A stretch of DNA of 56,374 nt from the NCBI GenBank assembly GCA_021777475.1, contig JAJYDM010000003.1:1-56374 (forward strand), read 5' to 3'. Both the position numbers and the translations under genes were made by a program. Positions 15,844 through 31,144 of the stretch are shown here, piece by piece. The DNA comes from Actinomycetes bacterium (lineage in GTDB: Bacteria; Actinomycetota; Acidimicrobiia; Acidimicrobiales; Acidimicrobiaceae). The notes below the pieces were generated by a model. That model was given only the letters and a program-made list of their open reading frames with translations. It was not told the origin of the DNA and ran no database searches. Position 1 is the first letter of the stretch, and each line of letters begins with the position of its first letter.

Positions 15844-16632
15844 TTAACTCCCGTTCCCGAGATGGAGAAGTGAGAGCAGCCGCTTGGTGATCGATCCACT
15901 GACTCCCTGTGCCGCTGATGAAGCTGCATGTGATTGCGGCACCACTGAGGCGATATGCGGCCCGCTGGGAATTATTGCCGCGTGGTGAATCCACCAGAAT
16001 CCCGCCAAGAAGAAGAAGCCGAGGTAGAGGCATGTCGCAAACACCGACTCGGCCCACGATCCCGTCACTCCGAAAATCGGGTAGGACGATTTTTCGCTCT
16101 TTGGATACAGAAGCGGAATTCCCCCTCTCGTTAGAAAGTCGCCCAGCATGTGAACAAGCCACCCGAGCCCGACGAACAAGACGAACCAGTGATTGGAAAC
16201 CGGGTGGTACCGATAGTCCAGCACGCCGCTTCCAACACCGACGAGAAGAAATGTCATTCGTCGAAATGGCAACACCCGTGGAATCGACAGTCGCCACGCG
16301 GTAGCGGTGAGCAGCCCGAACATCACGGCGCTCGCCTCTCTCGCGAACGAGAGCGGAACCAAGAGCGCGATTACGATGCCGAGCCCCAGGAGCGAATGCG
16401 TGAGCTTCCTGTGTCCACCAGCAACCCTATTAACCCCTTTTGAAAACCAGCGGCTGACTATTCCGAACTCGCGCGACACGCTCGAATCAGGCTCATCTAT
16501 ATCGGGGAGCACTGCCGCCCCGCAAACTGCCAAAGAGGAAACTAACCAGTCGGGAGAGCCCAGGCCAAAAAGCGCGACCCCGAGCCCCGTGCCAACTGCT
16601 AGACCCATTGCTGCATGCGATTTTCCCATCAT
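15844..16632 (-). CDS. YdjM-like membrane-bound metal-dependent hydrolase
   Basis: 262 residues with several membrane helices and the conserved polar signature of the YdjM/LexA-regulated family (PF04307): KSHAAMG at the start, LPDIDEPDS near residue 45, HRKLTHSLL near 75, and HMLGDFLTRGGIPLLYP near 165. The His and Asp residues suggest a metal site in the membrane. The ATG at 16632 directly follows an element promoter box (GGGGC then ATGATG), with no room for a ribosome binding site, so translation is probably leaderless. It is the first gene of a unit with dnaB. Confidence 0.8.
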   Translation of the reverse strand: MMGKSHAAMGLAVGTGLGVALFGLGSPDWLVSSLAVCGAAVLPDIDEPDSSVSREFGIVSRWFSKGVNRVAGGHRKLTHSLLGLGIVIALLVPLSFAREASAVMFGLLTATAWRLSIPRVLPFRRMTFLLVGVGSGVLDYRYHPVSNHWFVLFVGLGWLVHMLGDFLTRGGIPLLYPKSEKSSYPIFGVTGSWAESVFATCLYLGFFFLAGFWWIHHAAIIPSGPHIASVVPQSHAASSAAQGVSGSITKRLLSLLHLGNGS

Positions 16633-16633
16633 G

Positions 16634-16656
16634 CCCCATATATATGCGGGAGATTC
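16634..16656 (-). promoter_or_regulatory. Element promoter box 1 (ydjM-dnaB)
   Basis: Minus strand GAATCTCCCGCATATATATG then GGG. If TATATA is the -10 hexamer (-12 to -7), +1 falls on the A of the ydjM start codon. No conserved -35 hexamer is shared with the other copies. Confidence 0.75.
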
Positions 16657-16867
16657 GGATAGCGCGGAGAAATCGCGAAGCCGCTTTTAGGTATACCCTG
16701 GTTGCAGCGACCGGGCCAGAACAAACCCGACACCCAAAAGCGTCACGCTCCGGGCCGTCCTGGAGAAGGTGTTTTGGCCTAGCGGCTGGTAAACGGCAGC
16801 CAATCGGTACACAACCTTCTGCCGAGAGGCAAACGAATCCCCCTAGTTAATAGGTCACGAGTCGGAG

Positions 16868-17428
16868 CTACTCTGCCGTATGAATCAATTGGTAATCCAG
16901 CCTTCCGGGCGCAGAGAAGGAAATCCTCAGCTCATAGTCTGGACCACTTTTAGCCTGCAATAAGTTGTTTAGCCGACCGGTGGGATCTTCGCCGAGCAAT
17001 TCGTTGACGCCCTTCGTAGCCCGTGTCACATCGAACCATTCGCCTTTCAAGTTACGCGCGACAACACCCAAGAGCGCCGGCTCATTGGGATGCAACGGGT
17101 CACAAGCTCCCAGCTGCGAGAGTTTTCCTGTCATTACAGGTGACTCTCGGGAAAGCATTCCGAAATTGATCCACAAAAAGCCGTTCCATCCCCAGAGTGA
17201 AACGCATTGAGGGCAATACGCGCCTGAATGCCGTACCGAAATCGTTATATCGTCAGACTCGAAATAGTCGACGTTGAAAATCGGAAATATGAATTCGTCA
17301 AGGCGACGCGCTTCTTGGGCAAGTGACAACAGTTCCTGGTTCTGTCTAAAAACCTTCCAAGAAAGCCATACAGCACCAACTGCTGCCAGAGATGCAAGGA
17401 TGCTAAAAAACAGGGTCAGCAATCTCAT
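16868..17428 (-). CDS. Uncharacterised protein with N-terminal membrane helix
   Basis: 186 residues, ATG start with GAGGA 9 nt upstream. One membrane helix (FFSILASLAAVGAVWLSW, residues ~7-25) and a short coiled segment (RQNQELLSLAQEARRL) are followed by a soluble domain of unknown family with three Cys (two as CPQC). Similar small membrane-anchored proteins occur beside defence genes. Here the MmeI-like enzyme gene lies 117 nt upstream on the same strand. No function can be assigned. Confidence 0.7.
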   Translation of the reverse strand: MRLLTLFFSILASLAAVGAVWLSWKVFRQNQELLSLAQEARRLDEFIFPIFNVDYFESDDITISVRHSGAYCPQCVSLWGWNGFLWINFGMLSRESPVMTGKLSQLGACDPLHPNEPALLGVVARNLKGEWFDVTRATKGVNELLGEDPTGRLNNLLQAKSGPDYELRISFSAPGRLDYQLIHTAE

Positions 17429-17545
17429 ATTCTGATCGTCCTCGACTCAAGATCCAAATAACGAAACCTCGTTTCAGTTGACCCTTCCGTTTCCTGCACC
17501 GTACCTCCAAGTCGTACTACCCAGCGCTGATAACAAAGGTACCAG

Positions 17546-20293
17546 CTATATTCCCAGACGTCCTTCGACCTCTCGTTTCGGGAACGGCGCGTACTCCTCG
17601 CCAGATGCAATCCGCGCATTGCGATCACTCAGCAGCCGGATGAGTTCGGTTGGATTTTGGGCAACCGTGTCTTCCCAGCCATAGCACCTCGCAACAGCAA
17701 TATCTAGATGCCGATGAAGCTCAGCGAGGCTGCGATGGCCACCCATTTCCATTGTGTTGTAAAGCTTTGTCAGGCCCACGTTGAATTCAGCGCAAAGTGC
17801 TCTTCTGAGTTCAAATAGTTCTCTTGCAAACTCGGCAACAGCTTCTCGGTCGCTTTCTTCAACCGGATAGGGCCAGGCAAAAGTGACAAATGCCGTGCTC
17901 GGAGTGTATCGTAATCGCGTTTCTAGAGTTGATGAGGTATGCCGAGCCCACACAGCGTGCGCCGTTGAAGAGAGAATCCCGAAGGAGTAGTCGTCGTCGA
18001 AGGCGAAGACATTAGTTAAGTTACTCGGACACCACGAAGCATTACACCACGTCAAAAATAATCTTTTCCCTGTCGCCGTGCCCGCAATATACCGCGGAAG
18101 ACCGGCTATGGCTTTGCGTAATTCAGATGCTAACGAACCGAATTGCCACCAATAGTCCCGACGATGTTTCATTGCGTTACGATCTCGAAGTGGCTTGACG
18201 CGCTCTTTCACAATCGTCAATGCCTTTGGGTATTGCTCTGCATGTTCGAGTGGCATGGACCCAAAGTCGATGATCCAACGCTGTGGACGTTGGTTGGGAT
18301 CGTTGGCGATTTCCTCGCCAATCAAATACGGTCTTACGACGTCCAAATAGTGGGCGTCCTTGCGAGCTAAAAGAGCGGCGGCTTCGTCAGGTGTCAAGAT
18401 AAAACCCTCACCCACGGGGATTGGCCCCTGAAAGACCCATCCTTGATTCTCTCTTAGTGGAACAGGGGCGGGAAGTCCCTCGTCAGCTCTCAACGATGAG
18501 GTAATTCCCTTCACCACTTCGTCATCAAGGACATACCGCTTTGGTGATTCAGTAGGATTCTTGATCCAATTCACTAGGCTGACGTGTACTTTTGCATCTC
18601 CCGGCCACTTCTCACTCGACACAGCAGAAGTGATCACACCACCATTTGCAACCACATAGTCGAGACTTGCTGCTCTTGCCTTGTTCTGCGAAATTGAATT
18701 GGTTCCAACAAGACCCGCCCTGCCACCCTCTCCTAGGTGGTCAATGGCCTTGCGAAACCAATAGACGCACAGATCTTGCACCCCACAGTCAAACCGATCT
18801 ACGAGCCACCTGAGATAATCATTGCCCAAAGCTTCCCGTAGATGTTGGCCTCCCTGAAAAGGTGGATTGCCAATTATCACATCCACTTCCGGCCACTCCA
18901 TTTGGAGAGCATCTCCTTGTTGAATACCCGAAAGGTCCACCAGTGGCAATACCGGCTCCACCAGACCGTATGTGTCAGTCACGAGCTTGTGACCCATCCA
19001 AAGAGTCACCCTGGATATCATGACTGCGAACTCCTCGATTTCAATTCCGTAAAGATTGGAAATCGGATATGACGGCAAATCGCTCGGAGCAACAACTCCT
19101 GCGCTTCTGCTGAGTTCCTCAACCTTCGCCTTCGCTAGTTGTTCAAGGTGTCTCAGCTCCCTGTAGGCCACGTACAAGAAGTTGCCACAGCCACAAGCAG
19201 GGTCAAGCACTTTGAAGCGGCACAGATCTTCTAGAACCCCCAGCGCTTCAGATGGAACCTTTGTACTATTTATTCTTTCCGTCCATGGTTCAATAATGCT
19301 CGGGGTGACTATCTTTAGAATGTCGTCTTCATGGGTGTAATGAGCACCCAGCTCCCATCTCCGGTCTCTGCCGAGACATTCTTCCATCAGTGCGCCAAAA
19401 ATAGTTGGGTCGACCTCTCTCCAGTCGTATCTGACCACCTCAGCTAGGAGCAACAATTCCGAGTGCTGCAGATGCACTCGAGCCGGATTGGCGAAAAGCC
19501 CTCCGTTGACATAAGGAGCACCGGAATACAGCCCACCGCGAAGAGACTGGTCTTGGGAATTGAGGACGTCAAAAAGGTAACCAAGCTCAGATGCTGACGA
19601 CCGCTGCAAATCTGAAAGTAACCCTGTGATTATTCGTTCGACCGGACGACCGTGAATAAGTTCAAGACTTTCTGCAAAGAGACACCACACCATCTGGAGT
19701 AAGAACAGCCTGATCGTTTCTGGCGAGGCTGCATTTCGTTTCTTCAAAGACTCGTTGAGCAGCGCAACCCGTTTGGCGGCGTCAGTCGTGAGCTGCTTCC
19801 GGTGCGCGAGGAATAATGGTTCTTCGTCTGCGAGGAAAAGTAGTGACTCAAACCGATCCGGTAGCTCGGAGATGTCAAAAGTCTCCCTTGGACCCGATGG
19901 GTATCGTCCGGGTTCCCAGACTTCGAAGCGCTTGAAAGCACATAGAACCACGAAGGGAGTCGCTGGCCTGTTCGATGCAGGATCGGACGAATATTTCCAG
20001 TAATTCAGAGCCTGCTCACGATGCCGTTCAAGATGACTGGCCTCAGACGGAGCCTTCATTTCGACTATCGCGTGATTAGGGTATATGAGATCAACAATGC
20101 CACCTTCTTGAGGCCGTTCAAAGAAAGCGACGGTGTTTCCTTCAAGATCTATGCGAGGATTGCCGTACACGACGAACAGTTCATTTAGGAAGGTTTGAGC
20201 TTCGGCGCGCTCCGTGCCTTCGTAATCCTTCCAACGCTTTACAAAATCCGCGAGCGCTCTCTTGATCTCTTCACCGGAAACCTTATTGGGCAT
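17546..20293 (-). CDS. MmeI-family single-chain restriction-modification enzyme (type IIG/IIL)
   Basis: 915 residues, the usual size for this family. An N-terminal PD-(D/E)XK nuclease domain shows D68, E78 and K80 (IVEMK). A helical spacer follows, then a gamma-class N6-adenine methyltransferase core with motif I LDPACGCGNFLYVA (near residue 365) and catalytic motif IV NPPF (near 475), then a target-recognition domain and C-terminal helical region. Such enzymes cut on one side of an asymmetric site and protect by modifying one strand. The upstream 20300-20545 gene lies 6 nt away. The ATG start has a weak AGGTAAG upstream. It appears intact. Confidence 0.88.
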   Translation of the reverse strand: MPNKVSGEEIKRALADFVKRWKDYEGTERAEAQTFLNELFVVYGNPRIDLEGNTVAFFERPQEGGIVDLIYPNHAIVEMKAPSEASHLERHREQALNYWKYSSDPASNRPATPFVVLCAFKRFEVWEPGRYPSGPRETFDISELPDRFESLLFLADEEPLFLAHRKQLTTDAAKRVALLNESLKKRNAASPETIRLFLLQMVWCLFAESLELIHGRPVERIITGLLSDLQRSSASELGYLFDVLNSQDQSLRGGLYSGAPYVNGGLFANPARVHLQHSELLLLAEVVRYDWREVDPTIFGALMEECLGRDRRWELGAHYTHEDDILKIVTPSIIEPWTERINSTKVPSEALGVLEDLCRFKVLDPACGCGNFLYVAYRELRHLEQLAKAKVEELSRSAGVVAPSDLPSYPISNLYGIEIEEFAVMISRVTLWMGHKLVTDTYGLVEPVLPLVDLSGIQQGDALQMEWPEVDVIIGNPPFQGGQHLREALGNDYLRWLVDRFDCGVQDLCVYWFRKAIDHLGEGGRAGLVGTNSISQNKARAASLDYVVANGGVITSAVSSEKWPGDAKVHVSLVNWIKNPTESPKRYVLDDEVVKGITSSLRADEGLPAPVPLRENQGWVFQGPIPVGEGFILTPDEAAALLARKDAHYLDVVRPYLIGEEIANDPNQRPQRWIIDFGSMPLEHAEQYPKALTIVKERVKPLRDRNAMKHRRDYWWQFGSLASELRKAIAGLPRYIAGTATGKRLFLTWCNASWCPSNLTNVFAFDDDYSFGILSSTAHAVWARHTSSTLETRLRYTPSTAFVTFAWPYPVEESDREAVAEFARELFELRRALCAEFNVGLTKLYNTMEMGGHRSLAELHRHLDIAVARCYGWEDTVAQNPTELIRLLSDRNARIASGEEYAPFPKREVEGRLGI

Positions 20294-20299
20294 TCTTAC

Positions 20300-20545
20300 C
20301 TAAAAAAGTGGGAGTTGTGGAACGGAGAGGTAACCCCGCTGGTGGAGGAGTTTGCGGATAACTTCGAGCTTCTCCTGGGCTTCCTTGAGCGCGCTTACCG
20401 CATAGTCGTCAAACAGTTCGTTCTTATCCAAGGTGTCCAACGCCTTATCCACACGAGCCTGTGCAGTTTCAATGGCTAGCATCACTTCGCCAAGTTCACG
20501 AAATATCCGCTCGCGGTTGTCTTGTTCCTTCGAAAGTCGTTCCAC
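20300..20545 (-). CDS. Small coiled-coil protein preceding the restriction enzyme
   Basis: 81 residues, GTG start, almost entirely helical (ERIFRELGEVMLAIETAQAR and later VSALKEAQEKLEVIRKLL), ending SVPQLPLF. It is probably translated together with the MmeI-like gene 6 nt downstream. It could be a controller or accessory subunit, but it has no recognisable HTH. Family unknown. Confidence 0.65.
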   Translation of the reverse strand: MERLSKEQDNRERIFRELGEVMLAIETAQARVDKALDTLDKNELFDDYAVSALKEAQEKLEVIRKLLHQRGYLSVPQLPLF

Positions 20546-20627
20546 GTCGAAAATTCTAACATCTCACAAGATCCTCGTTGGAAAGTACCGAAGTTGCATC
20601 ATTAGAGATGTGACCGATAAATGGACC

Positions 20628-21212
20628 TCATTCGGTGCCTGATACCACCCCCGCGCGATTACCCCCGAGGTACCGGTACAGCGTCTGTCGAGTGATCCCG
20701 AACTCCTGTATCAAGTTTGCCTTGGATTCGCCGGCATCAATGCGTCTCGACAACTCTTCGATCTGCACCTTATTTAATGCTTTCCGTCTTCCCTTGTATG
20801 CACCGCGCTTTTTTGCCATGGCGATGCCCTCTCTCTGGCGCTCGCGGATCAGCTCCCGCTCGAACTCCGCCACTGCTCCCATGACCGAGAGCAACAGATG
20901 TGACATTGGAGAGTCGTCACCGGTAAAAGTCAGGGCTTCCTTCACGAACTCGACTCTCACGCCCCTTCGGGTGAGATCTTGTACTATCGTGCGCAGATCG
21001 AGAAGATTTCTCGCCAACCGATCCATTGAGTGGACCACAATGGTGTCGCCCTCGCGTACATAGGCGAGCATCTCGGTCAGTTGAGTCCGCACTGTGTCTC
21101 TACCCGAAGCTTTGTCAATAAAGACCCTGTCCAACTTCAAGTTCTCTAGTTGACGATCAGGATTCTGGTCGAGACTGCTGACTCTTACGTATCCAACTTT
21201 TTGTGTGTTCAA
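20628..21212 (-). CDS. Small serine recombinase (resolvase/invertase family)
   Basis: 194 residues. The catalytic domain has GYVRVSSLDQN with nucleophile Ser (residue 13), the conserved Arg region VHSMDRLARN (near 66) and the E-helix AEFERELIRERQREGI. A C-terminal HTH (ANLIQEFGITRQTLYRYL) is of the Hin/Tn3-resolvase type. It is the short form, so it probably resolves dimers or inverts a segment, not a large serine integrase. The TTG start follows GGAG. Repeats resembling its binding sites lie just upstream (21223-21288). Confidence 0.92.
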   Translation of the reverse strand: MNTQKVGYVRVSSLDQNPDRQLENLKLDRVFIDKASGRDTVRTQLTEMLAYVREGDTIVVHSMDRLARNLLDLRTIVQDLTRRGVRVEFVKEALTFTGDDSPMSHLLLSVMGAVAEFERELIRERQREGIAMAKKRGAYKGRRKALNKVQIEELSRRIDAGESKANLIQEFGITRQTLYRYLGGNRAGVVSGTE

Positions 21213-21222
21213 AGCAACTCCG

Positions 21223-21288
21223 TGTTACATGAAGTCTAGACTTGCTGTTACAAGTGTAACAAAATGCTCATTATGACTCTAATGTTAC
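21223..21288. repeat. TGTTAC repeat cluster, candidate recombinase (res) site
   Basis: TGTTAC occurs at 21223 and 21283, and a 16-bp inverted repeat TGTTACAAGTGTAACA lies at 21246-21261, all within 80 nt upstream of the recombinase start. Resolvases commonly bind repeated sites next to their gene; it could equally be an operator. Confidence 0.5.
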
Positions 21289-21307
21289 GTGTTTGTCGCC
21301 CCCGGAA

Positions 21308-21352
21308 GGGCAATCTTTAGGGTACACCCTAAACATACAGTCGGCTTTGCCC
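21308..21352. other. Nested hairpin
   Basis: GGGCAA (21308-21313) pairs with TTGCCC (21347-21352) and encloses the near-perfect palindrome TTTAGGGT-AC-ACCCTAAA (21316-21333). No T-run follows, so it is unlikely to be a simple terminator. Confidence 0.5.
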
Positions 21353-21377
21353 ATTCTGAGCACACAAGAGCGAAACC

Positions 21378-21460
21378 GTCGGCGGGAGAGCTTGGGTGTA
21401 ATAAAACTCAGTGAACACCAAACCAGCTCTCCCTTCGGGCGGGGGTATGCCCTAGCCGAC
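21378..21460. other. Three-way-junction structure of unknown role
   Basis: GTCGGC (21378-21383) pairs with GCCGAC (21455-21460). Between them are two hairpins: a long one, GGGAGAGCT (21384-21392) with AGCTCTCCC (21425-21433), and a short one, GGGC (21437-21440) with GCCC (21449-21452). It lies between the zinc-repeat gene stop and the recombinase start. It could be a structured RNA, a single-strand origin or a recombination site. Confidence 0.55.
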
Positions 21461-21480
21461 GAGACTTGTAGTGCAAGTGC

Positions 21481-22446
21481 CTAACTCGCACTCTCCACAA
21501 GCACGTAGCACTCGCTCCCATCATCGCCAAAATGCGCCTGTGGTTCCAGGTGACCTATCGCCAACTGGTTGAGTTCGGTCCTGACCGCGTTCGCCACTTC
21601 GCTTGTAGTTATATCTTTGGCCGACTGTCCCCTTGCTCCTGTCACCGCCGCAATTGCCGCTTCCAGGATGAGTTCGCTGTCCTCGTCATCAAGACCCAAG
21701 AGCCTGGTCACCTGGGCCGCCTTCTCGGGCAGCACCGTCACCCATTTTGGAACTTCCGCCGCAGTTGTCCCACTAGTGGTAGCCGTCTTGGCCATGGCTA
21801 CAGCCGTAGGTGCGCCGTGGGCAGGAGGCTCTCCCTGGGGCGGCTCGTCTGCTGGATTCGGGTCATCCTGCTTCCCATTCGAAAAGGTGTACTTGATCTT
21901 GTGCTCGTCGAAATCCCACTCCACCGTAGCCCGATACTTTGTACCTTTCGTCCTGGACGTCATGACCCACGGACCGAGTTCGACGCCTAGAAGCAGCTGA
22001 CCCAGCTCTTCTGGCGTCAGTGCGTGACCGTTGCAGTCGCGCCATGCCTTCACTGGGCACCATTCTTCGTTGGACAGCTTCGTCGGACAGTAGAACGTCT
22101 TCTCCGATGAGCGGAGCGGAACATTGTGGTCCGGGCACAGCACATCTTTCAGGGCCTCGTTCAGTTCGTCATTCGCGAACCGCAATCTGACTTTCCTCTC
22201 CTTCGAATCCCAAGCCATCTTGGCCGGAAATGCCTTATTCTTGGCCTGCGAGAAGAACTCACGCTCCGCTGTCACCGCTCCATTGCAGATGTCTACTAGA
22301 TCTGCTGCGGTAAGTGCGTACCCCGAGATAGTCTTGTAAACCTTGAAGTTCTCCGGACACTTATCCCCCGCCTCACATCCCCAGAACTTTTCATAATCAA
22401 GTATCGTGCCGCCGCATATTGGACAAGCCACCGTACTCTGTGCCAT
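21481..22446 (-). CDS. Topoisomerase-type zinc-repeat protein without catalytic domain
   Basis: 321 residues from the ATG at 22446 (AAGGGAG upstream). Two repeats of the topoisomerase C-terminal type can be seen: CPICGG ... GYALTAADLVDICNG ... FPAKMAWD (residues ~9-90), and a second starting CPDHNVPL ... GHALTPEELGQLLLG ... YRATVEWD (~105-190). These domains normally follow topoisomerase I/III cores and bind single-stranded DNA; no Toprim or active-site Tyr region is present. A Pro/Ala-rich linker leads to a helical C-terminal region. It is under element promoter box 2 and is likely a ssDNA-binding accessory factor of replication. Confidence 0.7.
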   Translation of the reverse strand: MAQSTVACPICGGTILDYEKFWGCEAGDKCPENFKVYKTISGYALTAADLVDICNGAVTAEREFFSQAKNKAFPAKMAWDSKERKVRLRFANDELNEALKDVLCPDHNVPLRSSEKTFYCPTKLSNEEWCPVKAWRDCNGHALTPEELGQLLLGVELGPWVMTSRTKGTKYRATVEWDFDEHKIKYTFSNGKQDDPNPADEPPQGEPPAHGAPTAVAMAKTATTSGTTAAEVPKWVTVLPEKAAQVTRLLGLDDEDSELILEAAIAAVTGARGQSAKDITTSEVANAVRTELNQLAIGHLEPQAHFGDDGSECYVLVESAS

Positions 22447-22476
22447 TTGATTACTCCCTTCGGATTGAGTATTGCA

Positions 22477-22499
22477 CTCCATATATATGCGGCAAATTC
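22477..22499 (-). promoter_or_regulatory. Element promoter box 2 (zinc-repeat gene)
   Basis: Minus strand GAATTTGCCGCATATATATG then GAG. Predicted +1 near 22475 gives a ~29-nt leader containing GAAGGGAG before the ATG at 22446. Confidence 0.7.
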
Positions 22500-22575
22500 A
22501 GATCTCTGCGAAAGAAATGGCGGTAAAGATCCCACAATCTCGCCTACATAGCCCCTCATGTAAGAGCACTAGTGT

Positions 22576-22827
22576 ATGATTACTGTGATGACGTCTACGC
22601 CACGTATCCGCACACCTGGGAGCCGAATACTACACCGCGCACGTTCAGCGGCGGGAATCACCCAAAGAGAGCTCGCGGCGAGATCCGGAGTCCCCCACGC
22701 CACAATCGCCCGCATCGAAGCCGGGTTCATCGCTTCACCAAAGCTGGATACGCTTCTGGTGATCCTCGCCGGCATCGGCTTCGGGCTTGAACTTGCAGGA
22801 TTAGAGGCAGACGAAGGAGCCGTGTGA
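22576..22827 (+). CDS. XRE-family HTH regulator
   Basis: 83 residues, mostly one Cro/C1-type HTH: LHRARSAAGITQRELAARSG, PHATIARIEAG, then a helix SPKLDTLLVILAGIGFGLEL. Such proteins bind operators as dimers. The stop overlaps the start region of the EAL gene (TGA-G-ATG), so the two are co-expressed. The ATG at 22576 or 22591 may be the start; no clear ribosome binding site is seen. Confidence 0.85.
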   Translation: MITVMTSTPRIRTPGSRILHRARSAAGITQRELAARSGVPHATIARIEAGFIASPKLDTLLVILAGIGFGLELAGLEADEGAV

Positions 22828-22828
22828 G

Positions 22829-24034
22829 ATGACGCAAGGAGACAACCACGCGCAGAACTTCCCGGCAACGGACTTTGTGACGCAGACCTTCATGGCGGAA
22901 CTCAAAAGAGTAATCGCGCTCCTCCGGGGATGGTACCGGACATTTCAGCCAGATGGAAACACGCTGTCTTCTTGGGCGTTTCTTCTCAGGGATCTTGACG
23001 CCTCACTATTTGTTCCCGCCGCCGAGATCTGGGCAATTTCCCACACGCAATGGCCTCCAGAAGCCAGCCAATTCAGAGAGCTTGTCGAAGACCTGGAACG
23101 CAAACGAGAGAACGACGCCGCCCGTCTCTCCAATACGAAACTCGTCGAACTCTCTAAGGCACGCTCCCTACGCAACTACAGCCCAGCCATCTGCGAGGGG
23201 ACCACGTCGGCGCTGCATGCGTTGGCGAGGAGTGAGACCGGAGGGGATTTTCCACTGGATGTTTCAGAGCAACGGTTGTTCCAAGCGCTGAGAGACAACG
23301 AGCTGTTTTTGGTCTACCAGCCCATCGTTGACATGGGATCGGGAAGTATCTGTGGTGCGGAGGCGCTCATCAGATGGAACCACCCGGAATTTGGTACAGT
23401 CATGCCGGAAGCGTTTGTACCGCACCTAGAAGTAACCGGACTGATCGGAGTGGTTGACGCGAGCATGATTCGCCAAGCATGCCGCCAGGCGCGTGAATGG
23501 CTTACCGCGAATCTTGTCGGACCAGATTTCGCGCTGCATGTAAATGTTTCAGGAGTCGAGCTTGGTTCGGACCAGCTGGAAGAATACCTCGGAATGATCC
23601 TGGCGGAATCCGGTGTGCCGCCGAAAAATCTCGTCATTGAGATTACCGAAACTGCATTGCCACCAAGAGCGGATCTTTCAGCAAATGCAGCAGGAATGCG
23701 AAAGATCTCCGATCTCGGCGTGCGGATCGCCCTCGACGACTTCGGGTCCGGCTTCTCTTCGCTCTCCAGGCTCGCGGAGTTCCCTGTCGATCTACTGAAA
23801 ATCGACAAGAGCTTCGTGTCTCAGATCGGGAATGAGCGCGAAAACATCAGGTGCGAAAACATCTTGGGGTCAATCTTCGATATGGCGCACCGGATGGGTC
23901 TCGGTGTGATTGCAGAAGGTGTGGAGACCGATGAGCAAGCCGGCCTACTTATACAGCTCGGATGCCAACTTGGGCAGGGCTTTCACTTTGGCAAGCCAAT
24001 GCCGCCTGCGGACCTTGCCGCATCGCTGGGATGA
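22829..24034 (+). CDS. EAL-domain c-di-GMP phosphodiesterase with helicase-loader-like N-terminus
   Basis: 401 residues. Residues ~150-398 form an EAL domain with the active-site motifs preserved: EALIRW (178-183), NVSG, VIEITETAL, DDFGSGFSSL, LLKIDKSFV and AEGVETDEQ. It should hydrolyse c-di-GMP. Residues ~25-95 do not look like a sensor. The pattern W-x2-L-x-D-x5-F-x2-A-x2-W ... W-P-P-x4-F-R-x-L (around W49 to L85) resembles phage helicase loaders of the G39P type. The gene follows the XRE regulator with one base between stop and start. The EAL call is firm; the loader call is pattern recognition only. Confidence 0.88.
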   Translation: MTQGDNHAQNFPATDFVTQTFMAELKRVIALLRGWYRTFQPDGNTLSSWAFLLRDLDASLFVPAAEIWAISHTQWPPEASQFRELVEDLERKRENDAARLSNTKLVELSKARSLRNYSPAICEGTTSALHALARSETGGDFPLDVSEQRLFQALRDNELFLVYQPIVDMGSGSICGAEALIRWNHPEFGTVMPEAFVPHLEVTGLIGVVDASMIRQACRQAREWLTANLVGPDFALHVNVSGVELGSDQLEEYLGMILAESGVPPKNLVIEITETALPPRADLSANAAGMRKISDLGVRIALDDFGSGFSSLSRLAEFPVDLLKIDKSFVSQIGNERENIRCENILGSIFDMAHRMGLGVIAEGVETDEQAGLLIQLGCQLGQGFHFGKPMPPADLAASLG

Positions 24035-24094
24035 TTTCGGCCTAGGGCAAACACCGTTCCGCGCTCGAGATCGGAGAAAATCCTCGACCTGGCC

Positions 24095-24517
24095 CTAACG
24101 CGCCACTGCGACATCCCTGGGGATGCACAGATCCAGGTACAGCTCTTCGAAAGTCCAATAATGGCGGACCCTGGACGCGAGATAGAAAAGGTTCTCACGC
24201 GGACCGACCACAAATAGCCGGAGTCCCGCCGCTAGCGCAATTCCGAACTCGACGTGCCTGCCACCTCTCGAAAACCCGCTGTCGGCGGGCTCGGTAAACG
24301 CAATGAGCGCGTCTGCGACCAAGAGGTCCTGCATATCGTCCTCGAAGAACTTTTGGGCAAGTCTGCGATTAATCGGACTCAACAACTCCGAATCCAGAGC
24401 CTCGTGCTCTCCGCTTATCCAACGCGAAGTCACGACATGCCCGTGGTGTTCGAGCTGGTCGGCGTATCCCCTCAGCTCTTCATGCCGCGAATACCGCGCG
24501 GCCAAATAGAACTTCAA
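24095..24517 (-). CDS. Nucleoside 2-deoxyribosyltransferase-like protein
   Basis: 140 residues. The start MKFYLAARYSRHEEL, the DLLVADALIAFTE segment and the GGRHVEFGIALAAG motif fit the nucleoside 2-deoxyribosyltransferase/DUF4406-like Rossmann family, in which the Glu in the HVEFG motif is the usual nucleophile. Members exchange or release bases from deoxynucleosides, and several occur in phages. The TTG start follows GAGGAGG. It is the last gene of the parA operon, 12 nt after the NYN gene stop. Confidence 0.75.
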   Translation of the reverse strand: MKFYLAARYSRHEELRGYADQLEHHGHVVTSRWISGEHEALDSELLSPINRRLAQKFFEDDMQDLLVADALIAFTEPADSGFSRGGRHVEFGIALAAGLRLFVVGPRENLFYLASRVRHYWTFEELYLDLCIPRDVAVAR

Positions 24518-24529
24518 ATTTCAACCTCC

Positions 24530-25093
24530 TCATGCCAAAACGCGCTCTGCGCACGGTTTCAGCGGATCCCTCCGGCTCCACTTGGGAATTCTCTCGGGCA
24601 AGCCCGAAACGCTCTCATCAAAGCTCAAGATTCGCCCCGCTGCCATTCGCAAGCTTGGCGCTAACGCCTCCGGACGGGAAATAACCGTGACGAGCGTTCT
24701 CTCTCTGGCTATCCGGGAAGCCAACGGCCCAAAAATGTGGTCGCCTGATGCGATCAAGACCTCGGCGAAGCGCTCCGTGCTTGCCGAGAGGTCTTCCCAA
24801 ACTTCGAGAAGCGCCATATCCGCGCCATCCTGCCCGGACCGGACCACAAACCTCGGTCCTCGCCAATCGAACATGATGGCCTTGGCCATCCAGTGGGAAC
24901 ACCCGACAACCACTAGATCACACTCTTGCGGACGCGCGATCTCCAAGTACCGTCTGCTGCATTGGCGGATCAGGTGCATATCCGGGCTATGGTCGCATAC
25001 GAGATTCTCAATGTCCACAAGGTGCAGCCGCCTCTGCGGGTGTGTTCGAGCATGACTGCGACCCGAACGGCTTTGGGTTTGGTAAACGGTCAT
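24530..25093 (-). CDS. NYN-domain (PIN-like) putative ribonuclease
   Basis: 187 residues from the ATG that overlaps the preceding stop (ATGA). Acidic NYN/PIN-like motifs are in place: HLVDIENL near residue 27, DGADMALLE near 98, ASGDHIFGPLA near 120. The first ~20 residues are basic and probably disordered. These proteins are metal-dependent RNases. Its position between a SLOG gene and a nucleoside-processing gene is unusual. The assignment is by motif. Confidence 0.75.
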   Translation of the reverse strand: MTVYQTQSRSGRSHARTHPQRRLHLVDIENLVCDHSPDMHLIRQCSRRYLEIARPQECDLVVVGCSHWMAKAIMFDWRGPRFVVRSGQDGADMALLEVWEDLSASTERFAEVLIASGDHIFGPLASRIARERTLVTVISRPEALAPSLRMAAGRILSFDESVSGLPERIPKWSRRDPLKPCAERVLA

Positions 25094-25899
25094 GTCATTG
25101 CTCCAACATCTGGGATCTCTGTGCCGATATCGTCCGGTTCCCAAACGGGTACGCCTTTCCGTCGTGCCCGGCGCACCATATCCGCGGTACCCCGCCCACC
25201 AGGGAATGCAACGACCAAGTCGATGCCACTATCTAACATCTCCTTGTTCCTGATCGGACCCGCCTTGTGTCCGTAAACGTTCCATCTAGCTGGATGGGCC
25301 TCGATGGAAAAGCCAGCCAGTCCGCCGTAGTAGCCACACCACGAATCCGCGCCAGGGGCGCAGCCGTGAACGAGCGTTGCACCGAAATGCCTCCTAGCGA
25401 GCTTCCTTAGAACGACTTGTATGGTCTCGGTGTCGTTGTAGTCCCTTCCTCCGCACACCAGGATCCGCAGAGCCCCGACTTCCGGTTGCCGGGGCTTCTC
25501 TATCTCGGCGACCAAATGATGGCAACCCCGGTTGTGAATGATACGACCCTCCGCAACGAAGCAGTATTGCACGGGGGTATCGGGCACGGCCTCGAGCCAA
25601 ACTGGATCGCATGGTTCGAACCTTTCGCTATCCTCGATACCATCCGCCAACTCCAAGACCGGACCTTCGGGGCCCCATGCGACCTCTACCGGAATCCGCA
25701 CAACGCCCTCGGTTTCGATCTCCTGCTCGTCAATCCAAAGCCTGGCGTTGCACTCGCCGAGGTCTTCGCGGGAAATCTCATTCCCAGCCTCGTCGCACTC
25801 GTAGCTGTACCAGCACGGAGGCGAGGTTCCGTTCTGCGGCTTCGCGTTGCAATGAAAGCGCAACTCTCCGTCTTCGACTACCAGCTCATGCAAGGCCAT
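25090..25899 (-). CDS. SLOG-domain (YspA/DUF2493-like) protein with novel N-terminal domain
   Basis: 269 residues. The C-terminal half (~140-255) matches the YspA-like SLOG fold: RILVCGGRDYND, LVHGCAPGADSW, HPARWNVYGHKAGPIRNKEM, LVVAFPGGRGTADM. SLOG domains bind nucleotide-derived ligands. The N-terminal ~130 residues are rich in acidic residues, Trp and Cys, and match nothing I recognise. The ATG overlaps the parA stop (TGATG), and the stop overlaps the NYN start. It could sense a nucleotide signal for the NYN RNase. Confidence 0.78.
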   Translation of the reverse strand: MALHELVVEDGELRFHCNAKPQNGTSPPCWYSYECDEAGNEISREDLGECNARLWIDEQEIETEGVVRIPVEVAWGPEGPVLELADGIEDSERFEPCDPVWLEAVPDTPVQYCFVAEGRIIHNRGCHHLVAEIEKPRQPEVGALRILVCGGRDYNDTETIQVVLRKLARRHFGATLVHGCAPGADSWCGYYGGLAGFSIEAHPARWNVYGHKAGPIRNKEMLDSGIDLVVAFPGGRGTADMVRRARRKGVPVWEPDDIGTEIPDVGAMT

Positions 25900-26795
25900 C
25901 ACCGACCTCCCTCTTCTCCGGCATTTTCCTCCGCCGAGTCGAATTCCGGCCCACCCGATGCCTGGGCATCAGGTGCCAACTCCACCGCGCCGAACAGCTT
26001 CCCGCGAGTGGATTTGAGGCCGTCGGACAGGTTGACTGTCGCTTCGGCAAGGATTGAATCGGCCATTGCTTCTTTGGCGTTGTGCCAGAACAGCTGCAGG
26101 CTTGCTCCGACGATGGGATCACTACCGTTGAGATCCGCCACTGTCTGGGGAATCAGCCTGCTGTCGCGTTGTATGAGCTCGACGAGCTGGGGGTGTGCCT
26201 TCTCGATGGAAATGACGCGCACGCCCCCGATCTTGAGCCATTCGGTGAAGCGTGGATCGTCGTGCCAACATCTCTGACCCCGGTAGGCCAGCTGAAACGG
26301 CTGCTTTACCGCAGTGACCCGCCCCTTTGTCATCGCGCTCAGCATCCCACTATCAAGCGAGGTAAGGATGCCATCGTCTTCGCTATCCGCCACAGTGCGA
26401 TCGGCGTTGACCGACAAAGACCACGCCGCCCTGAGATCGTACTCCTGCTTGAACGCCGCCAGAATCTCGGGATCGTTCTCGAACGGACGCACCCCGCTGG
26501 CGGGGGTATTCACGATTATCCATTCACTATCAAGCGCCCTCAATGCGTCAGCAAAGGCCACCGACCCGGATCTGTCCACCAAGCCAGCCAGATCGACCTC
26601 GGCGACGCTCACGTCGCTGTCAGCGTATCTCCGCACCAGTGTCGGCGAGTGCTCGTCGCCCTCGATGCAAGCCACGCTCTGTCCGGTCTCCCTTAGCGCT
26701 TCTATCGCAAGGACCGCCAGTGTGGACTTGCCTACGCCGCCCTTAGCGCCGGTGGAAAAGACCAATTTTTTCGATTTCTTGGCTTCAGTAGCCAT
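25899..26795 (-). CDS. ParA/MinD-type ATPase
   Basis: 298 residues. A deviant Walker A KGGVGKST sits at residues ~18-25, followed by CIEGDEHSP and IIVNTPASG (Walker B region) as in ParA/MobD-like ATPases. The C-terminal ~40 residues are acidic and low-complexity. Such proteins position plasmids or other cargo; no parB-like gene is adjacent. It starts with ATG after AAAGGAGAAAG and heads the operon parA-SLOG-NYN-deoxyribosyltransferase, whose genes overlap or nearly touch. It is transcribed from element promoter box 3, through a leader with a stem-loop. Confidence 0.85.
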   Translation of the reverse strand: MATEAKKSKKLVFSTGAKGGVGKSTLAVLAIEALRETGQSVACIEGDEHSPTLVRRYADSDVSVAEVDLAGLVDRSGSVAFADALRALDSEWIIVNTPASGVRPFENDPEILAAFKQEYDLRAAWSLSVNADRTVADSEDDGILTSLDSGMLSAMTKGRVTAVKQPFQLAYRGQRCWHDDPRFTEWLKIGGVRVISIEKAHPQLVELIQRDSRLIPQTVADLNGSDPIVGASLQLFWHNAKEAMADSILAEATVNLSDGLKSTRGKLFGAVELAPDAQASGGPEFDSAEENAGEEGGR

Positions 26796-26811
26796 AACTC
26801 TTTCTCCTTTC

Positions 26812-26849
26812 GGTCTCGGAACGCCCGAGAGCCAATACCAGCCGAGACC
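26812..26849 (-). promoter_or_regulatory. Stem-loop in parA leader
   Basis: GGTCTCGG and CCGAGACC form a perfect 8-bp stem around a 22-nt loop, between promoter box 3 and the parA ribosome binding site. It may be an operator or an RNA control element. Confidence 0.5.
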
Positions 26850-26872
26850 TGAGCCTCGTTCTTCTATCTCCG

Positions 26873-26896
26873 CCCCATATATATGCGCGAGATTTC
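26873..26896 (-). promoter_or_regulatory. Element promoter box 3 (parA operon)
   Basis: Minus strand GAAATCTCGCGCATATATAT then GGGG. Predicted +1 at about 26871 gives a ~76-nt leader. It is divergent from box 4, about 150 bp away. Confidence 0.75.
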
Positions 26897-27041
26897 AAGA
26901 AATCCGAAGACAAAAAGTTTCCTGAGCACAGGACGCGGGCCGAGAGAAGATGACTCCAGTAGACGAGAAAAGACCGGACGCCTCAGATCCGGTCCAAAAC
27001 CGGAGAATTCCAAAAAAAATCCCTCGGTCACAAAATTGCGT

Positions 27042-27065
27042 GAAATCTCCCGCATATATATGGGG
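27042..27065 (+). promoter_or_regulatory. Element promoter box 4 (sigma-like gene)
   Basis: Plus strand GAAATCTCCCGCATATATAT then GGGG. The following C and ATG place +1 at the start codon itself, so the transcript should be leaderless, as at box 1. Confidence 0.78.
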
Positions 27066-27066
27066 C

Positions 27067-28191
27067 ATGAAGGGACTACAACAACTGCTGCAATCCACAG
27101 GATGCCCCGATGCCGACACGCAGATGTCCAACGAGGAGATTGTGGCCAAAATCCAAAGTCTTGTCTCCGCTTGCGACCCGGCGGATAGGAAAAAGCTAGC
27201 CCACCTGCAGGAGGAACTCTATAGAAAAACCGCCGCGCTGGTAACCACGCTTGCACGGCAATACAACCGAGGGCACCCACTAACCGAGGACGAGCAGTCA
27301 GAGCTCCCTCTCGCGGTATTTGACGCTGCACGCAAGTACGATCCCGCTCGTGGCGCGCAGTTCAGCACCTACCTCGCGTTCTATGTCCGCAGCGCGCTCC
27401 AGCGGGAGCACGCCTTCACCCATGGTCAATCCCAGGCGAAGTACGCACGGGCCGCGAGGATGCTCAACAACCCCCAAAACTACGATCGGGAGCAGGTCCG
27501 GCGAGCCGAGGCTTTCCTGCGGAGTAAGAAGGCTTTCTCGGAGGAAACCGTTCTGTCGGACTCCGACACGCAGATGTCCGCAGAAGACCTGTTGTTCATG
27601 ATCACCGAACAGAACTTAGATGACGCCAAAAACGATCGGCTGCTCGCGCTTGCGCGGGAGGCAATCCTCAACCTCGGTGGAGAGGAGCAGCGGGTGCTCT
27701 TGTCAATGCTCGATCCGCAGAAGGCGACGACGGAGTACGGTTTGAAGACAATTGGGGCCGTCGCGAAGGATATCGACTTGGACGAGCTCAGCGTCGAGGT
27801 CGACCGCCAACGAGTATTCGTGACTATCCGCGACTATATATTCGAGCGCGACCCCAGTCTGGCCCCTCCCGGATGGACCAGCGAGCAAAAGGGCATCCAG
27901 GTGCCAGGTACGGAGGTATTCGTCCTCGGCCTTTTCGGAATGCCGACATCGGGGGAAATGGGCAACTACGCCAAGCGCATCGGGGGAATCCATGTGCGCC
28001 AGCACTGCGCCACGCCAACGCCCAGGCAGCATCGCGTCGCTGGCGACCCCTCCGAAACCGCAGGAGAAGATGACCGGCTGTCGCTATTCCCTGACGACAC
28101 ACAAGAAGAGCTGTGCACGCCATCCAGCGCGGCCGAAACTGCTGAGACCAAGAGTGTCGGTTACGGACTGGGTATGGGGAGGATGCGCTAA
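27067..28191 (+). CDS. Sigma-70-family-like transcription factor of the element
   Basis: 374 residues from the ATG at 27067. Residues ~50-120 match sigma region 2: LYRKTAALVTTLARQYNRGH, AVFDAARKYDPARG, then FSTYLAFYVRSALQRE, the -10 recognition helix. A weaker region-4-like stretch follows around 215-275 (EEQRVLLSML ... LKTIGAVAKDIDLDEL ... VDRQRVFVTIRDYI). The C-terminal ~90 residues are low-complexity. It would direct RNA polymerase to element promoters. The frame is open upstream to 26950, but the promoter box directly before this ATG argues for a leaderless start here. It lies behind its own copy of the shared box, implying autoregulation. Region 2 is convincing; region 4 is degenerate. 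Confidence 0.78.
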   Translation: MKGLQQLLQSTGCPDADTQMSNEEIVAKIQSLVSACDPADRKKLAHLQEELYRKTAALVTTLARQYNRGHPLTEDEQSELPLAVFDAARKYDPARGAQFSTYLAFYVRSALQREHAFTHGQSQAKYARAARMLNNPQNYDREQVRRAEAFLRSKKAFSEETVLSDSDTQMSAEDLLFMITEQNLDDAKNDRLLALAREAILNLGGEEQRVLLSMLDPQKATTEYGLKTIGAVAKDIDLDELSVEVDRQRVFVTIRDYIFERDPSLAPPGWTSEQKGIQVPGTEVFVLGLFGMPTSGEMGNYAKRIGGIHVRQHCATPTPRQHRVAGDPSETAGEDDRLSLFPDDTQEELCTPSSAAETAETKSVGYGLGMGRMR

Positions 28192-28259
28192 GCCGCGAAG
28201 GGCGTGACCGTCCTAGTAGTCTTAGTATCCACGGCGTTAGATGCCAGGAGGTGATAGCA

Positions 28260-28616
28260 TTGAGATCGCGGACCGGGGCCAATGCCAAAACGAAACCCAA
28301 TGCGATTGCGCCCCGGTCCGCCAAATCGCGCAAGTTGGCCATGCGGACTGCAGCGGCCAACCGGCTCGCGTCTCGGCGGCAAGAGGACTGGGCCGGGAAA
28401 ATTGCCACCGCCTGGTTGCGCAGCAATGGAGTAAAGTTTTATTGCGACATCCGCCGCGCGCACCTTTGGCGAATCTGCGCCCTGGCGGTTTTTGTGACGA
28501 TCCTGAGCTGCGCATGCGGCATCGGTGCCGCATCCATGGTGACCGCAGCACACCACAGCGTGAATATGGCACAGCCATGGTACCGGCTCATGACATGGGA
28601 GCCGCATCTTCCTTGA
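28260..28616 (+). CDS. Small membrane protein with palindromic element in its N-terminus
   Basis: 118 residues from the TTG at 28260, chosen because AGGAGG lies 8 nt upstream. A very basic N-terminus (RSRTGANAKTKPNAIAPRSA) is encoded by palindromic copy A. Then come a helix, and one membrane segment (ICALAVFVTILSCACGIGAA, residues ~78-97). No family recognised. Translation across the hairpin means that the palindrome is compatible with coding. It follows the sigma-like gene by 68 nt. Confidence 0.6.
   Translation: MRSRTGANAKTKPNAIAPRSAKSRKLAMRTAAANRLASRRQEDWAGKIATAWLRSNGVKFYCDIRRAHLWRICALAVFVTILSCACGIGAASMVTAAHHSVNMAQPWYRLMTWEPHLP
28268..28321 (+). repeat. 54-nt palindromic element, copy A
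   Basis: GCGGACCGGGGC, 30 nt, then GCCCCGGTCCGC: perfect 12-bp arms. The centre shares CGAAACCCA with copy C and the pattern CGAnAnCCA with copy B. It lies within the first codons of the 28260-28616 gene. Confidence 0.8.
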
Positions 28617-28629
28617 TCTACTGAATGCG

Positions 28630-29631
28630 TTACGGCTTGAGAACCAGGAGTTCCTGAACGACAGCGTGATGGGTAGTTTTCATCGGCACAAGAGCAGTGC
28701 GCAAACCGTGGCGTTCCGCCATTGCCCTGACTTCCGGCACATCGTCGTAGGTCATCATCGCCGCTCCGCGCACAGACGCCATGAGAGCAAACAAACACTC
28801 ATGATCGATTTGGTTGTGGGTGTAAAGGCGCTTGCCTGCATTCTTGCCACCTGCCGTGTAGGGTGGATCCACAAAAAACACTGCGTCTGGGTCGTTGGCG
28901 TACGCCTCGATCACAGCGAAGGCATCCTTGTGCTCGAAGCTGACGCGCTCACGCATCGAGCGAAGTGCCAAAATTCGTTTTACCAGCGTCTCTGGATACC
29001 AGCGGGACAGAAGTCCTCGCCCATTCTCACCTTCCTTGATTAGTCCGGCACCTGCCGCCAGAATGCCGCCACGCTGCATCCGGTTCTTTATGATCGTGCG
29101 AAAAGCGCGGCTCTTGCAACTGATGGGCGCGCCATCGAGAACCTCCCTGACATTTCCAAGCGTCACATCAAAGCTGACGATGCGTTCGCACAGCCAGCGA
29201 ACATCCGAATCCGTCCCGCTGAAAACCGTTTGCCATACGGCGGCCACGTCGTCGTCCAACTCGGACAAGACGACATGGTCAGCTAGGCTTTCCGCTGCAA
29301 CGGTAAGGCCCGCCATGGCTCCGCCTGCAAACGGCTCGACGAAGACCGAAGGTGCGCGCACCGGTGTTGTCACCCACTTGCGGACTTCCGGCACAAGCCA
29401 GGTTTTTCCTCCTGGATACCGGAAGGGGCTGAGCTGGCGAACCTGGGCGACATTCGTTGGACTCTGCTTGTCGCGCAATTGTTCCACGAAGGCGGCAAGA
29501 GCCCCGATCCGTGTCTGACCGATCATGGAATCCGGTTTTTGGCCAAGGCGGACTCCAGCCAGCGCGCCGCGATCAACAGCGAGTTCCTCGGCGCATTGGA
29601 AACAACAACTCTCATGCAGTCGGAGCGACAT
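28630..29631 (-). CDS. D12-class N6-adenine DNA methyltransferase (Dam-like)
   Basis: About 333 residues. The AdoMet-binding motif FRYPGGKTWL (near residue 70), VFVEPFAGGAMAG (near 95), VLSELDDDVAAVWQ, and catalytic DPPYTAGG (near 255) are diagnostic of D12-class alpha enzymes. No partner nuclease is adjacent, so it may be an orphan protecting the element or setting replication timing. The start is uncertain: ATG at 29631 (used) or 29526. It is the last gene of the operon from box 5. Confidence 0.88.
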   Translation of the reverse strand: MSLRLHESCCFQCAEELAVDRGALAGVRLGQKPDSMIGQTRIGALAAFVEQLRDKQSPTNVAQVRQLSPFRYPGGKTWLVPEVRKWVTTPVRAPSVFVEPFAGGAMAGLTVAAESLADHVVLSELDDDVAAVWQTVFSGTDSDVRWLCERIVSFDVTLGNVREVLDGAPISCKSRAFRTIIKNRMQRGGILAAGAGLIKEGENGRGLLSRWYPETLVKRILALRSMRERVSFEHKDAFAVIEAYANDPDAVFFVDPPYTAGGKNAGKRLYTHNQIDHECLFALMASVRGAAMMTYDDVPEVRAMAERHGLRTALVPMKTTHHAVVQELLVLKP

Positions 29632-29649
29632 GGAACCCACCGCCGGTCC

Positions 29650-29943
29650 TCAGCCGATCTGCCCGGGCAACCGTGGATGAAGCGTCACTTGGCTAACCTC
29701 CGCGAACTCCGACTCCGTCCGGCTTTCGGGGCGCGCCTGCTTAGGGCGCGTCTGTTTCCGAGGTCCGCTCGTCTTCTCCTTGTGCTTTCTGTTGTCGATC
29801 TTGTTCGCGATGTAAACGCCCGTCATCTGGCCCATAGCCCCGCCGATGGTCGCGCCTGTCGGCCCCGCAACGTGCCTACCCATGACCGCACCCGCCACTC
29901 CGCACACGGTGCCCACGCACTCTTCCAAAACTGGCTTTGACAT
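29650..29943 (-). CDS. Small glycine-zipper-type protein with basic tail
   Basis: 97 residues. The first half is Gly/Ala-rich (VAGAVMGRHVAGPTGATIGG) and could insert in a membrane as a glycine zipper; the second half is strongly basic (KHKEKTSGPRKQTRPKQ). The start touches the previous stop (TAGATG). Family unknown; it belongs to the methylase operon. Confidence 0.6.
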   Translation of the reverse strand: MSKPVLEECVGTVCGVAGAVMGRHVAGPTGATIGGAMGQMTGVYIANKIDNRKHKEKTSGPRKQTRPKQARPESRTESEFAEVSQVTLHPRLPGQIG

Positions 29944-30651
29944 CTACCGCTCCCAGGCTGCGTCCAGCGCCGCATAGAGGTTCCCCAATAGGAGACGCAG
30001 CAACGCCGGCACGCGCGCCCGGATCTCATCCCCGGACCTGCCGGTCTGGGTCGAAGTCGCTTCGATGCACTCGTCGATACTGCGCACGCCGTCAAAGGTG
30101 GTCCACAAGAAATAGTCCAAACCCCCGAGCGCGATAGCCTCGGTTTTTGCAAAGACAGGAGGCCCGCCTTGAACGGAAGAAGGTTCGACCGCCCTTTGGC
30201 CCGCCGCGATCAACAGATAATGCTCTTTGTCGTTTGGGGCCTGGCCCAGTCCGCTCGCATGCGAGACCACCTTGAGCCTTGTCACCTCGCTCCACGCTGG
30301 CGATTCGTCGTCTGCCGGAAGCATCGCGACCAGGTTCGCATCAAGCAGATCCTTGAGAAGCTCGCCTGAATCGCCGAGATCAGCCCCTGCGCAGAAGGCG
30401 TCTATGCTGGAACGGTCCATCGGGACGGCCAGCGCGCTCAACAGTACGTATGACAACCAATCGATCTGCAAAAATCGTTTTCCCTGCCGAAACCACGGCG
30501 AAGCGAAGGGTTCGGGGCCCTCCGGATCCCGATCCACCCCGTCGTCGAGAACGCCCAACCCGACGCCGACCGCCACGTAGGTATCTAGCGCGGAAATGTC
30601 GCCAACTGATTGTTCCATCTGCTCCTCCATTTCTGATACGTACGACTGCAT
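29944..30651 (-). CDS. Uncharacterised protein, possible winged-helix or PqqD-like C-terminus
   Basis: 235 residues from the ATG at 30651 (AAGGAG 8 nt upstream). The N-terminus is acidic. A central LSYVLLSALAVPMDRSSIDA ... LLKDLLDANLV segment looks like a winged helix. The C-terminus (LDYFLWTTFDGVRSIDECIE ... LLRLLLGNLYAALDAAWER) resembles PqqD-like or wHTH folds. No clear function. It is the first gene of the methylase operon, with palindromic copy B in its leader. Confidence 0.7.
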   Translation of the reverse strand: MQSYVSEMEEQMEQSVGDISALDTYVAVGVGLGVLDDGVDRDPEGPEPFASPWFRQGKRFLQIDWLSYVLLSALAVPMDRSSIDAFCAGADLGDSGELLKDLLDANLVAMLPADDESPAWSEVTRLKVVSHASGLGQAPNDKEHYLLIAAGQRAVEPSSVQGGPPVFAKTEAIALGGLDYFLWTTFDGVRSIDECIEATSTQTGRSGDEIRARVPALLRLLLGNLYAALDAAWER

Positions 30652-30681
30652 TCGCAGTCTCCTTCTTTGTTCTGCCGTGGT

Positions 30682-30735
30682 GCGGACCGGGGCGTAAATA
30701 CCCTGGTTATCGTCTTGGCGATGGCCCCGGTCCGC
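30682..30735 (-). repeat. 54-nt palindromic element, copy B
   Basis: Minus strand GCGGACCGGGGC, 30 nt, GCCCCGGTCCGC: perfect 12-bp arms. It lies in the predicted 5' leader between promoter box 5 and the start codon at 30651. Like copy A it is preceded by GATC. Confidence 0.8.
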
Positions 30736-30761
30736 GATCTTGAGGAATTGTGATTCCACAT

Positions 30762-30783
30762 CTCATATATATGCGGGAGATTC
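30762..30783 (-). promoter_or_regulatory. Element promoter box 5 (methylase operon)
   Basis: Minus strand GAATCTCCCGCATATATATG then AG. Predicted +1 near 30759 gives a ~108-nt leader containing palindromic copy B. Confidence 0.75.
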
Positions 30784-31144
30784 GCAAGAAGCTCTGCCCA
30801 TGTACAAAGATCGGCTTGCCAGGTAGGCTCAGTGGCTTCTGCCTGGATGCTCTTTACCACTATCGGGTGTGGCTCGGAATGCCACTGGCTCCAGCCATCG
30901 GAACACAGATCCCCACCCGGGCGAAGCCCCGAGATCAACTCGGACGTTGCATTCTCCGACGATCCGGCGAAGCGGGGCAGTAGTCTGACAGTAGTCTGAC
31001 AGTAGTTGCGGGAATGACGGGGACGTATCTCAGCGCACAATGGCGTACAAGGGCGTACGAACGATTGCAGAGATCAGGGGTTTAGAAGTATTATCGGCCC
31101 TGGTCACGGGCCTATTATCCATGCTGCGACCTGCAATGTTTTAG
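30784..31144. other. Gene-free boundary region beside tRNA-Pro
   Basis: No convincing gene. It contains the 11-bp direct repeats at 30978-31007, a GGGCGTAC/GGCGTAC pair at 31041-31060, and a short hairpin GGCCC/GGGCC at 31096-31112 downstream of the tRNA. These would suit an integration boundary, but no tRNA 3' duplication or integrase gene is visible. Confidence 0.5.
30978..31007. repeat. 11-bp direct repeats (CAGTAGTCTGA)
   Basis: Two exact copies at 30978 and 30989 and a truncated third from 31000, about 140 bp from the tRNA-Pro 3' end. Possibly integrase arm sites; role unproven. Confidence 0.6.

Follow-up and report, generated by a model that had tools for sequence, protein, structure and literature searches.

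An integrative element of Acidimicrobiaceae with its own sigma factor gene and a likely class of element-specific, partly leaderless promoters

Sigma factors of mobile elements and the present locus

On the Bacillus subtilis plasmid pBS32, the element-encoded sigma factor SigN (ZpdN) acts on private promoters, both that of its own gene and those of a regulon spanning the element (PMC6751061). These promoters comprise a -35 and a -10 element, SigN itself resembles ECF sigma factors weakly, and LexA represses its gene (PMC6751061). Another divergent element-encoded sigma factor is gp55 of T4, a very small protein built around region 2 which works with gp33/gp45, and the T4 late promoter is -10-like without a conserved -35 (PMC2988020, PMC7892883). 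For integrative elements, the portions of the sources available to us describe a sigma-like gene with proposed control of transfer in the ConjTn1549 family (PMC4701971) and sigma-like genes in C. difficile CTns, whose action on promoters within the element was posed as an open question (PMC3158075). Sigma-like ICE genes with unknown targets are on record, and the kind as such is therefore already known.

In this study we analyzed a stretch of 56,374 nt, referred to as the window, from a member of the Acidimicrobiaceae (assembly GCA_021777475.1, contig JAJYDM010000003.1, positions 1-56,374, forward strand). The genome, called G000, comprises 2.28 Mb in 139 contigs and is 96% complete. As described for SigN, a sigma factor gene on a mobile element is accompanied by putative private promoters, including one before the sigma gene itself. 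In contrast to the -35 plus -10 arrangement of SigN promoters, the five boxes identified here share no -35; moreover, the protein belongs to another sigma-70 lineage, the start of its gene is leaderless in arrangement and the element is integrated at a tRNA-Pro gene. The boxes resemble T4 late promoters in being -10-like without a -35, whereas there are signs of a region-4-like C-terminal part in the sigma factor, and the conserved stretch reaches as far upstream as about -24. For ConjTn1549 and the C. difficile CTns no cognate promoter is described in the portions of the reports at hand (PMC4701971, PMC3158075), whereas a candidate set is visible here. As far as the open-access literature was searched, the sigma family, the promoter class, the element and the leaderless design are new. 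Taken together, we consider it likely that integrative elements of this type carry an autoregulated sigma factor of their own which reads element-specific, partly leaderless promoters, with variants that differ between elements.

The boxes and the element in the window

Five copies of the 20-mer GAATCTCCCGCATATATATG are present in the window, none with more than two mismatches (Table 1), and no match was found in 100 dinucleotide shuffles of the window, which marks the five boxes as non-random. Each of the five boxes faces a gene start, namely that of ydjM, the topoisomerase-C-like gene, parA, the sigma gene and the short ORF/30651 gene. A shared -35 block was sought upstream of the five boxes and not found. 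A scan of the whole G000 genome with a 17-mer at up to three mismatches revealed no copy beyond the five boxes, the sixth match being box 3 on the opposite strand. The bare 10-mer GCATATATAT has six copies in the genome; five of them are the boxes in the element, and the stray copy at C34:2307 has no adjoining start codon. The first-pass annotation, which had proposed five little-changed copies, each directed at a transcription unit and without a common -35, and had noticed none in the housekeeping half, was borne out in these points. Copies before housekeeping genes would have spoken against it, but genome-wide all five boxes were placed in the element. For membership among SigN-like element regulons we had asked for a private motif that is confined to the element and also present before the sigma gene itself, and both were found.

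Table 1. Positions of the boxes, genes and integration site in the window
Feature	Position	Strand	Remarks
Box 1	16637-16656	-	0 mismatches to the 20-mer; putative leaderless ydjM promoter (then dnaB, 2-nt gap); TATATATGGGGC-ATG
Box 2	22480-22499	-	2 mismatches; leadered; upstream of gene starting 22446; SD AAGGGAG before ATG 22446
Box 3	26876-26895	-	2 mismatches; putative leadered parA operon promoter; SD and ATG 81 nt downstream
Box 4	27043-27062	+	1 mismatch; putative leaderless sigma gene promoter
Box 5	30764-30783	-	0 mismatches; upstream of 58-codon ORF (ATG 30761), 30651-29944 gene, 29650 gene, dam-like methylase
dnaB-like replicative helicase gene	14441-15841	-	Pfam DnaB_C 7e-95; directly after ydjM
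ydjM-like membrane protein gene	15844-16632	-	Pfam YdjM 5.4e-24
Toprim_Crpt (topoisomerase C-terminal) repeat protein	21481-22446	-	8e-7, just under curated cut-off
parA - SLOG (YAcAr) - NYN - 24517 gene	24095-26795	-	Genes adjoin or overlap; box 3 unit
Sigma-70-family factor, 374 aa	27067-28191	+	Pfam Sigma70_r2 1.2e-7; PHROG351 sigma
D12-class adenine methyltransferase	28630-29640	-	Pfam MethyltransfD12 1e-9; end of box 5 unit
tRNA-Pro(GGG)	31144-31219	-	3' end abuts element
44-bp attachment-site sequence	31144-31187		3' part of tRNA-Pro(GGG)

Before ydjM and the sigma gene the sequence runs TATATAT-GGGGC-ATG. The leaderless spacing that had been claimed for these two genes is therefore exact, while the +1 itself remains an inference without transcript data. 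If the A of the ATG is taken as +1, the core falls at -12 to -7. Box 5 leads with TATATAT-GAG-ATG (TATATATGAG-ATG) into the 58-codon ORF, where leaderless geometry is possible, and boxes 2 and 3 are followed by a leader carrying a Shine-Dalgarno sequence before the gene. One box pair is inverted with 131 nt in between and two boxes adjoin parA, as might be expected if the boxes were repeats spread by recombination or iteron-like parts of an origin or partition site rather than promoters. However, the boxes are scattered singly over 14 kb, each facing a gene start, and a spacing of 4-5 nt to the ATG recurs in independent elements, so that we regard this explanation as highly improbable.

A second dnaB is found on contig C12 of the same genome. 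The Toprim_Crpt-type protein has a 35% homolog in G020 that is likewise located behind a box. Some element genes lack a box of their own, among them the HTH-EAL pair, a resolvase and a type IIG-like restriction-methylase. The latter is a large protein (17546-20293, minus strand) which matched PADLOC type IIG restriction-methyltransferase models at 2e-197. The HTH-EAL pair forms a divergent, boxless unit (22576-24034, plus strand) that consists of an Xre-type HTH gene (22576-22827) and a gene for an EAL-domain, cyclic-di-GMP phosphodiesterase-like protein; this unit is a candidate regulator of the element. Besides, a 59-nt segment is present as an inverted repeat with 81% likeness (28263-28321, plus strand; 30682-30740, minus strand), and both copies have a strong GC hairpin (GCGGACCGGGGC...GCCCCGGTCCGC) and similar peptide starts (RSRTGA-AKT...PRSA). 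The GC-richer left part of the window contains type II secretion/type IV pilus-like genes (1777-8160; GspE, GspF, prepilin peptidase), for which it is unresolved whether they belong to host or element. Relaxase or transfer genes were not recognised in the window.

The right end of the mobile element lies at the tRNA-Pro(GGG) gene; the opposite end is either beyond the contig or lost. The 44-bp attachment-site sequence was observed in identical form at the far end of the element in G038 (C161), as well as on C52 of G041. In G038 the neighbours of the repeat are a tyrosine integrase gene and an excisionase-like gene of the HTH_17 type. Integration at a tRNA with an att repeat and a tyrosine integrase is hence fulfilled in G038, and the window shows the tRNA end only; a left att site was found neither in the window nor in the other contigs of G000. 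The GC content is 0.52-0.59 in the first 31 kb and lower, about 0.48-0.53, in the half from 31 to 56 kb. In G040, the 17 kb to the left of tRNA-Pro contain none of the genes of the first 31 kb. From this absence and the GC contrast it follows that the element may run beyond the contig end.

The sigma factor and the boxes of its relatives

The gene behind box 4 had been called sigma-like; judged from profiles and alignments, its product is a genuine sigma-70-family protein. Region 2 scored 31.8 bits with Pfam Sigma70_r2, above the cut-off of 24, and the profile of the sigma family matched SigA region 2 at 3e-11. Region 4 could be aligned co-linearly to SigA only below threshold, and Sigma70_r4 was matched by the G038 ortholog at 0.0085, also below the cut-off. 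With a pLDDT of 56 the AlphaFold model is weak; its best Foldseek matches are sigma subunits (sigmaS/SigA) over ~290 columns with low confidence. A region-4-like C-terminal part seems to be present, although no -35 is conserved. A gp55-like sigma factor with region 2 only is disfavoured by the fold and profile comparison, and a longer ORF from 26950 was ruled out as the sigma start, as the N-termini of the orthologs align at ATG 27067. In SigA, the positions of the WWIRQAIT stretch read the -12/-11 bases; this stretch is replaced by FYVRSALQ in alignments of the element sigma.

Orthologs of the sigma factor were identified in G038 and G039, which belong to the same genus, in G010 (four copies), and in G020, G016 and G021, the last being cut by the contig end with an unreadable start. 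The 5' end is readable at nine sigma loci, that of G000 and those of eight orthologs with identities as low as 32%. At all nine, the core GCATAT(A/G)(T/G)AT or a close variant is located 4-5 nt before the ATG, and the leaderless geometry is therefore conserved. The variant is GCATATATAT in G000, G039 and the four G010 copies, GCATATGTAT in G038 and G016, and GCATATAGAT in G020, where ydjM also shows the leaderless box arrangement seen in G000. In related elements the core and its position are the same before sigma orthologs, ydjM, parA, excisionase-like and relaxase genes, with the refinement that the conserved part across relatives is GCATAT(A/G)TA only, and GAATCTCCC is largely an extension of the G000 element's own, with GAAATCTCGCG in common with one G038 box. 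With boxes only inside the element and the same core before genes of related elements, the proposal of an element-specific promoter class is supported.

In a sample of 298 genomes of the order the sigma family was confined to this bacterial family, and a collection of 84,980 species yielded seven loci, all in Actinomycetes/Actinobacteria MAGs. Searches of the IMG/VR, phage and plasmid collections brought up no ortholog, apart from one weak RpoS match. The more distant sigma matches that were checked proved to be boxless host sigma genes downstream of dnaG, and a pattern match on a viral contig (L007) was attributed to chance, as it falls within an HTH gene on the AT-rich contig of an unrelated phage. 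The draft genome G010 harbours its four close sigma paralogs on contigs C127, C179, C259 and C487 (L060-L063). Each has a divergent GTGCATATATAGA box in its vicinity, together with a homolog of the N-terminus of the EAL protein.

In 42 genomes of the family the pattern GCATATATAT-N(3-6)-ATG gave 38 matches and the reversed controls none; in other genomes of the order the numbers were near chance (about 14 versus 6 controls). The seven sigma-bearing genomes account for 26 of the matches and the 35 others for 12, a co-occurrence observed at Fisher p=0.005 for presence and permutation p=4.5e-5 for counts. Two limits apply to these statistics: the pattern was picked once the sequences upstream of the sigma genes had been viewed, and related genomes do not count as independent samples. 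Of the 26 boxes in relatives, 22 are followed by a start that is either leaderless or preceded by a Shine-Dalgarno sequence; read in the opposite direction, 2 of the 26 are, and for random positions the share is 8.8%. Matches without a detected sigma ortholog occurred in nine family genomes, which are draft assemblies; several of the matches in sigma-less genomes look like chance or stand before TnpB-like genes. OrfB/TnpB-like genes (IS605-type HTH) that start 5 nt after GCATATATAT were seen at L075 (G010), L077 (G021) and L079 (G026), including one in a sigma-less genome.

Such matches in genomes without the sigma factor would also fit ordinary -10 elements for a host sigma factor, shared by the element genes through common descent. 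TATATA resembles TATAAT, and leaderless promoters, which need a -10 only, are common in actinobacteria. Nevertheless, host genes should then have the box too, yet five of six GCATATATAT copies are in the element; unrelated genes of the element have about 20 conserved bp in common, and the variants are coherent within the G038 box sets. We therefore consider ordinary -10 elements quite unlikely.

In the G000 element CATATATATG is a perfect palindrome. If the boxes were operators, a repressor such as the Xre-type HTH protein could silence genes that are transcribed by the main sigma factor of the host, and the overlap of the boxes with the likely start region as well as the boxless HTH-EAL unit would be compatible with this. 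However, the reading as operator palindromes is weakened because the variants of the relatives (CATATGTATA, CATATATAGA, CATATATATC, CATATAGATA) are non-palindromic, while the position relative to the ATG is kept. Moreover, a scan of the region for host-type -35/-10 promoters gave chance level only, and the box co-occurs with the sigma family. A role as operators thus appears unlikely to us, and promoters read by the element sigma remain the preferred explanation.

In G038 the boxes show coherence within an element. The variant CCGCGCATATGTATAGAGC has four copies, before sigma, parA, the excisionase-like gene and a TrwC relaxase gene; the first three stand at one or the other end of the tRNA-Pro element, and the relaxase gene is on a separate contig. 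Other G038 contigs carry other box variants before Prim-Pol, a WhiB-like gene and others. In total, no fewer than four box variants, spread over separate contigs, were seen in G038 (L141-L155, L162-L169), against a single clear sigma ortholog; a cognate sigma factor for the other G038 variants was not found.

Proposed mechanism and meaning for the element family

Most likely, the element sigma joins host core RNA polymerase and the boxes are recognised by this complex; recognition is inferred, as are the +1 positions, in the absence of TSS, RNA or binding data. The TATATA core at -12 to -7 would be read without an ordinary -35, and the adjoining GAATCTCCCG may extend specificity upstream. The sigma factor would transcribe its own gene in a positive feedback together with parA and other element units, which leaves its first expression unaccounted for. 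At ydjM and sigma, transcription is predicted to start on or beside the A of the ATG, giving a leaderless mRNA, and at the other boxes a leader with a Shine-Dalgarno sequence would follow the start. In related elements the same code may drive the excisionase-like and relaxase genes, which is why we suppose that the regulon is probably a programme of excision, replication and transfer; its trigger is unidentified. A private transcription code is probably how the element turns on its genes for upkeep and mobility.

A tentative extension is that co-resident elements keep separate promoter dialects (GCATATGTATAGAGC, GCATATGTATAGAT, GCATATATATGGGGT and GCATATGTATAAGGT in G038), orthogonal codes that would insulate competing elements within a lineage-specific family of integrative elements with an autoregulated sigma factor and leaderless, -35-less promoters. 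The sequence itself reveals candidate cognate promoters, including those before excisionase-like and relaxase genes, and the question of the targets of element sigma factors therefore becomes directly testable. A compact leaderless -10-type promoter together with its own sigma factor would be useful as an orthogonal expression part, and the pair of box and sigma factor would be a natural case of promoter-sigma co-evolution.
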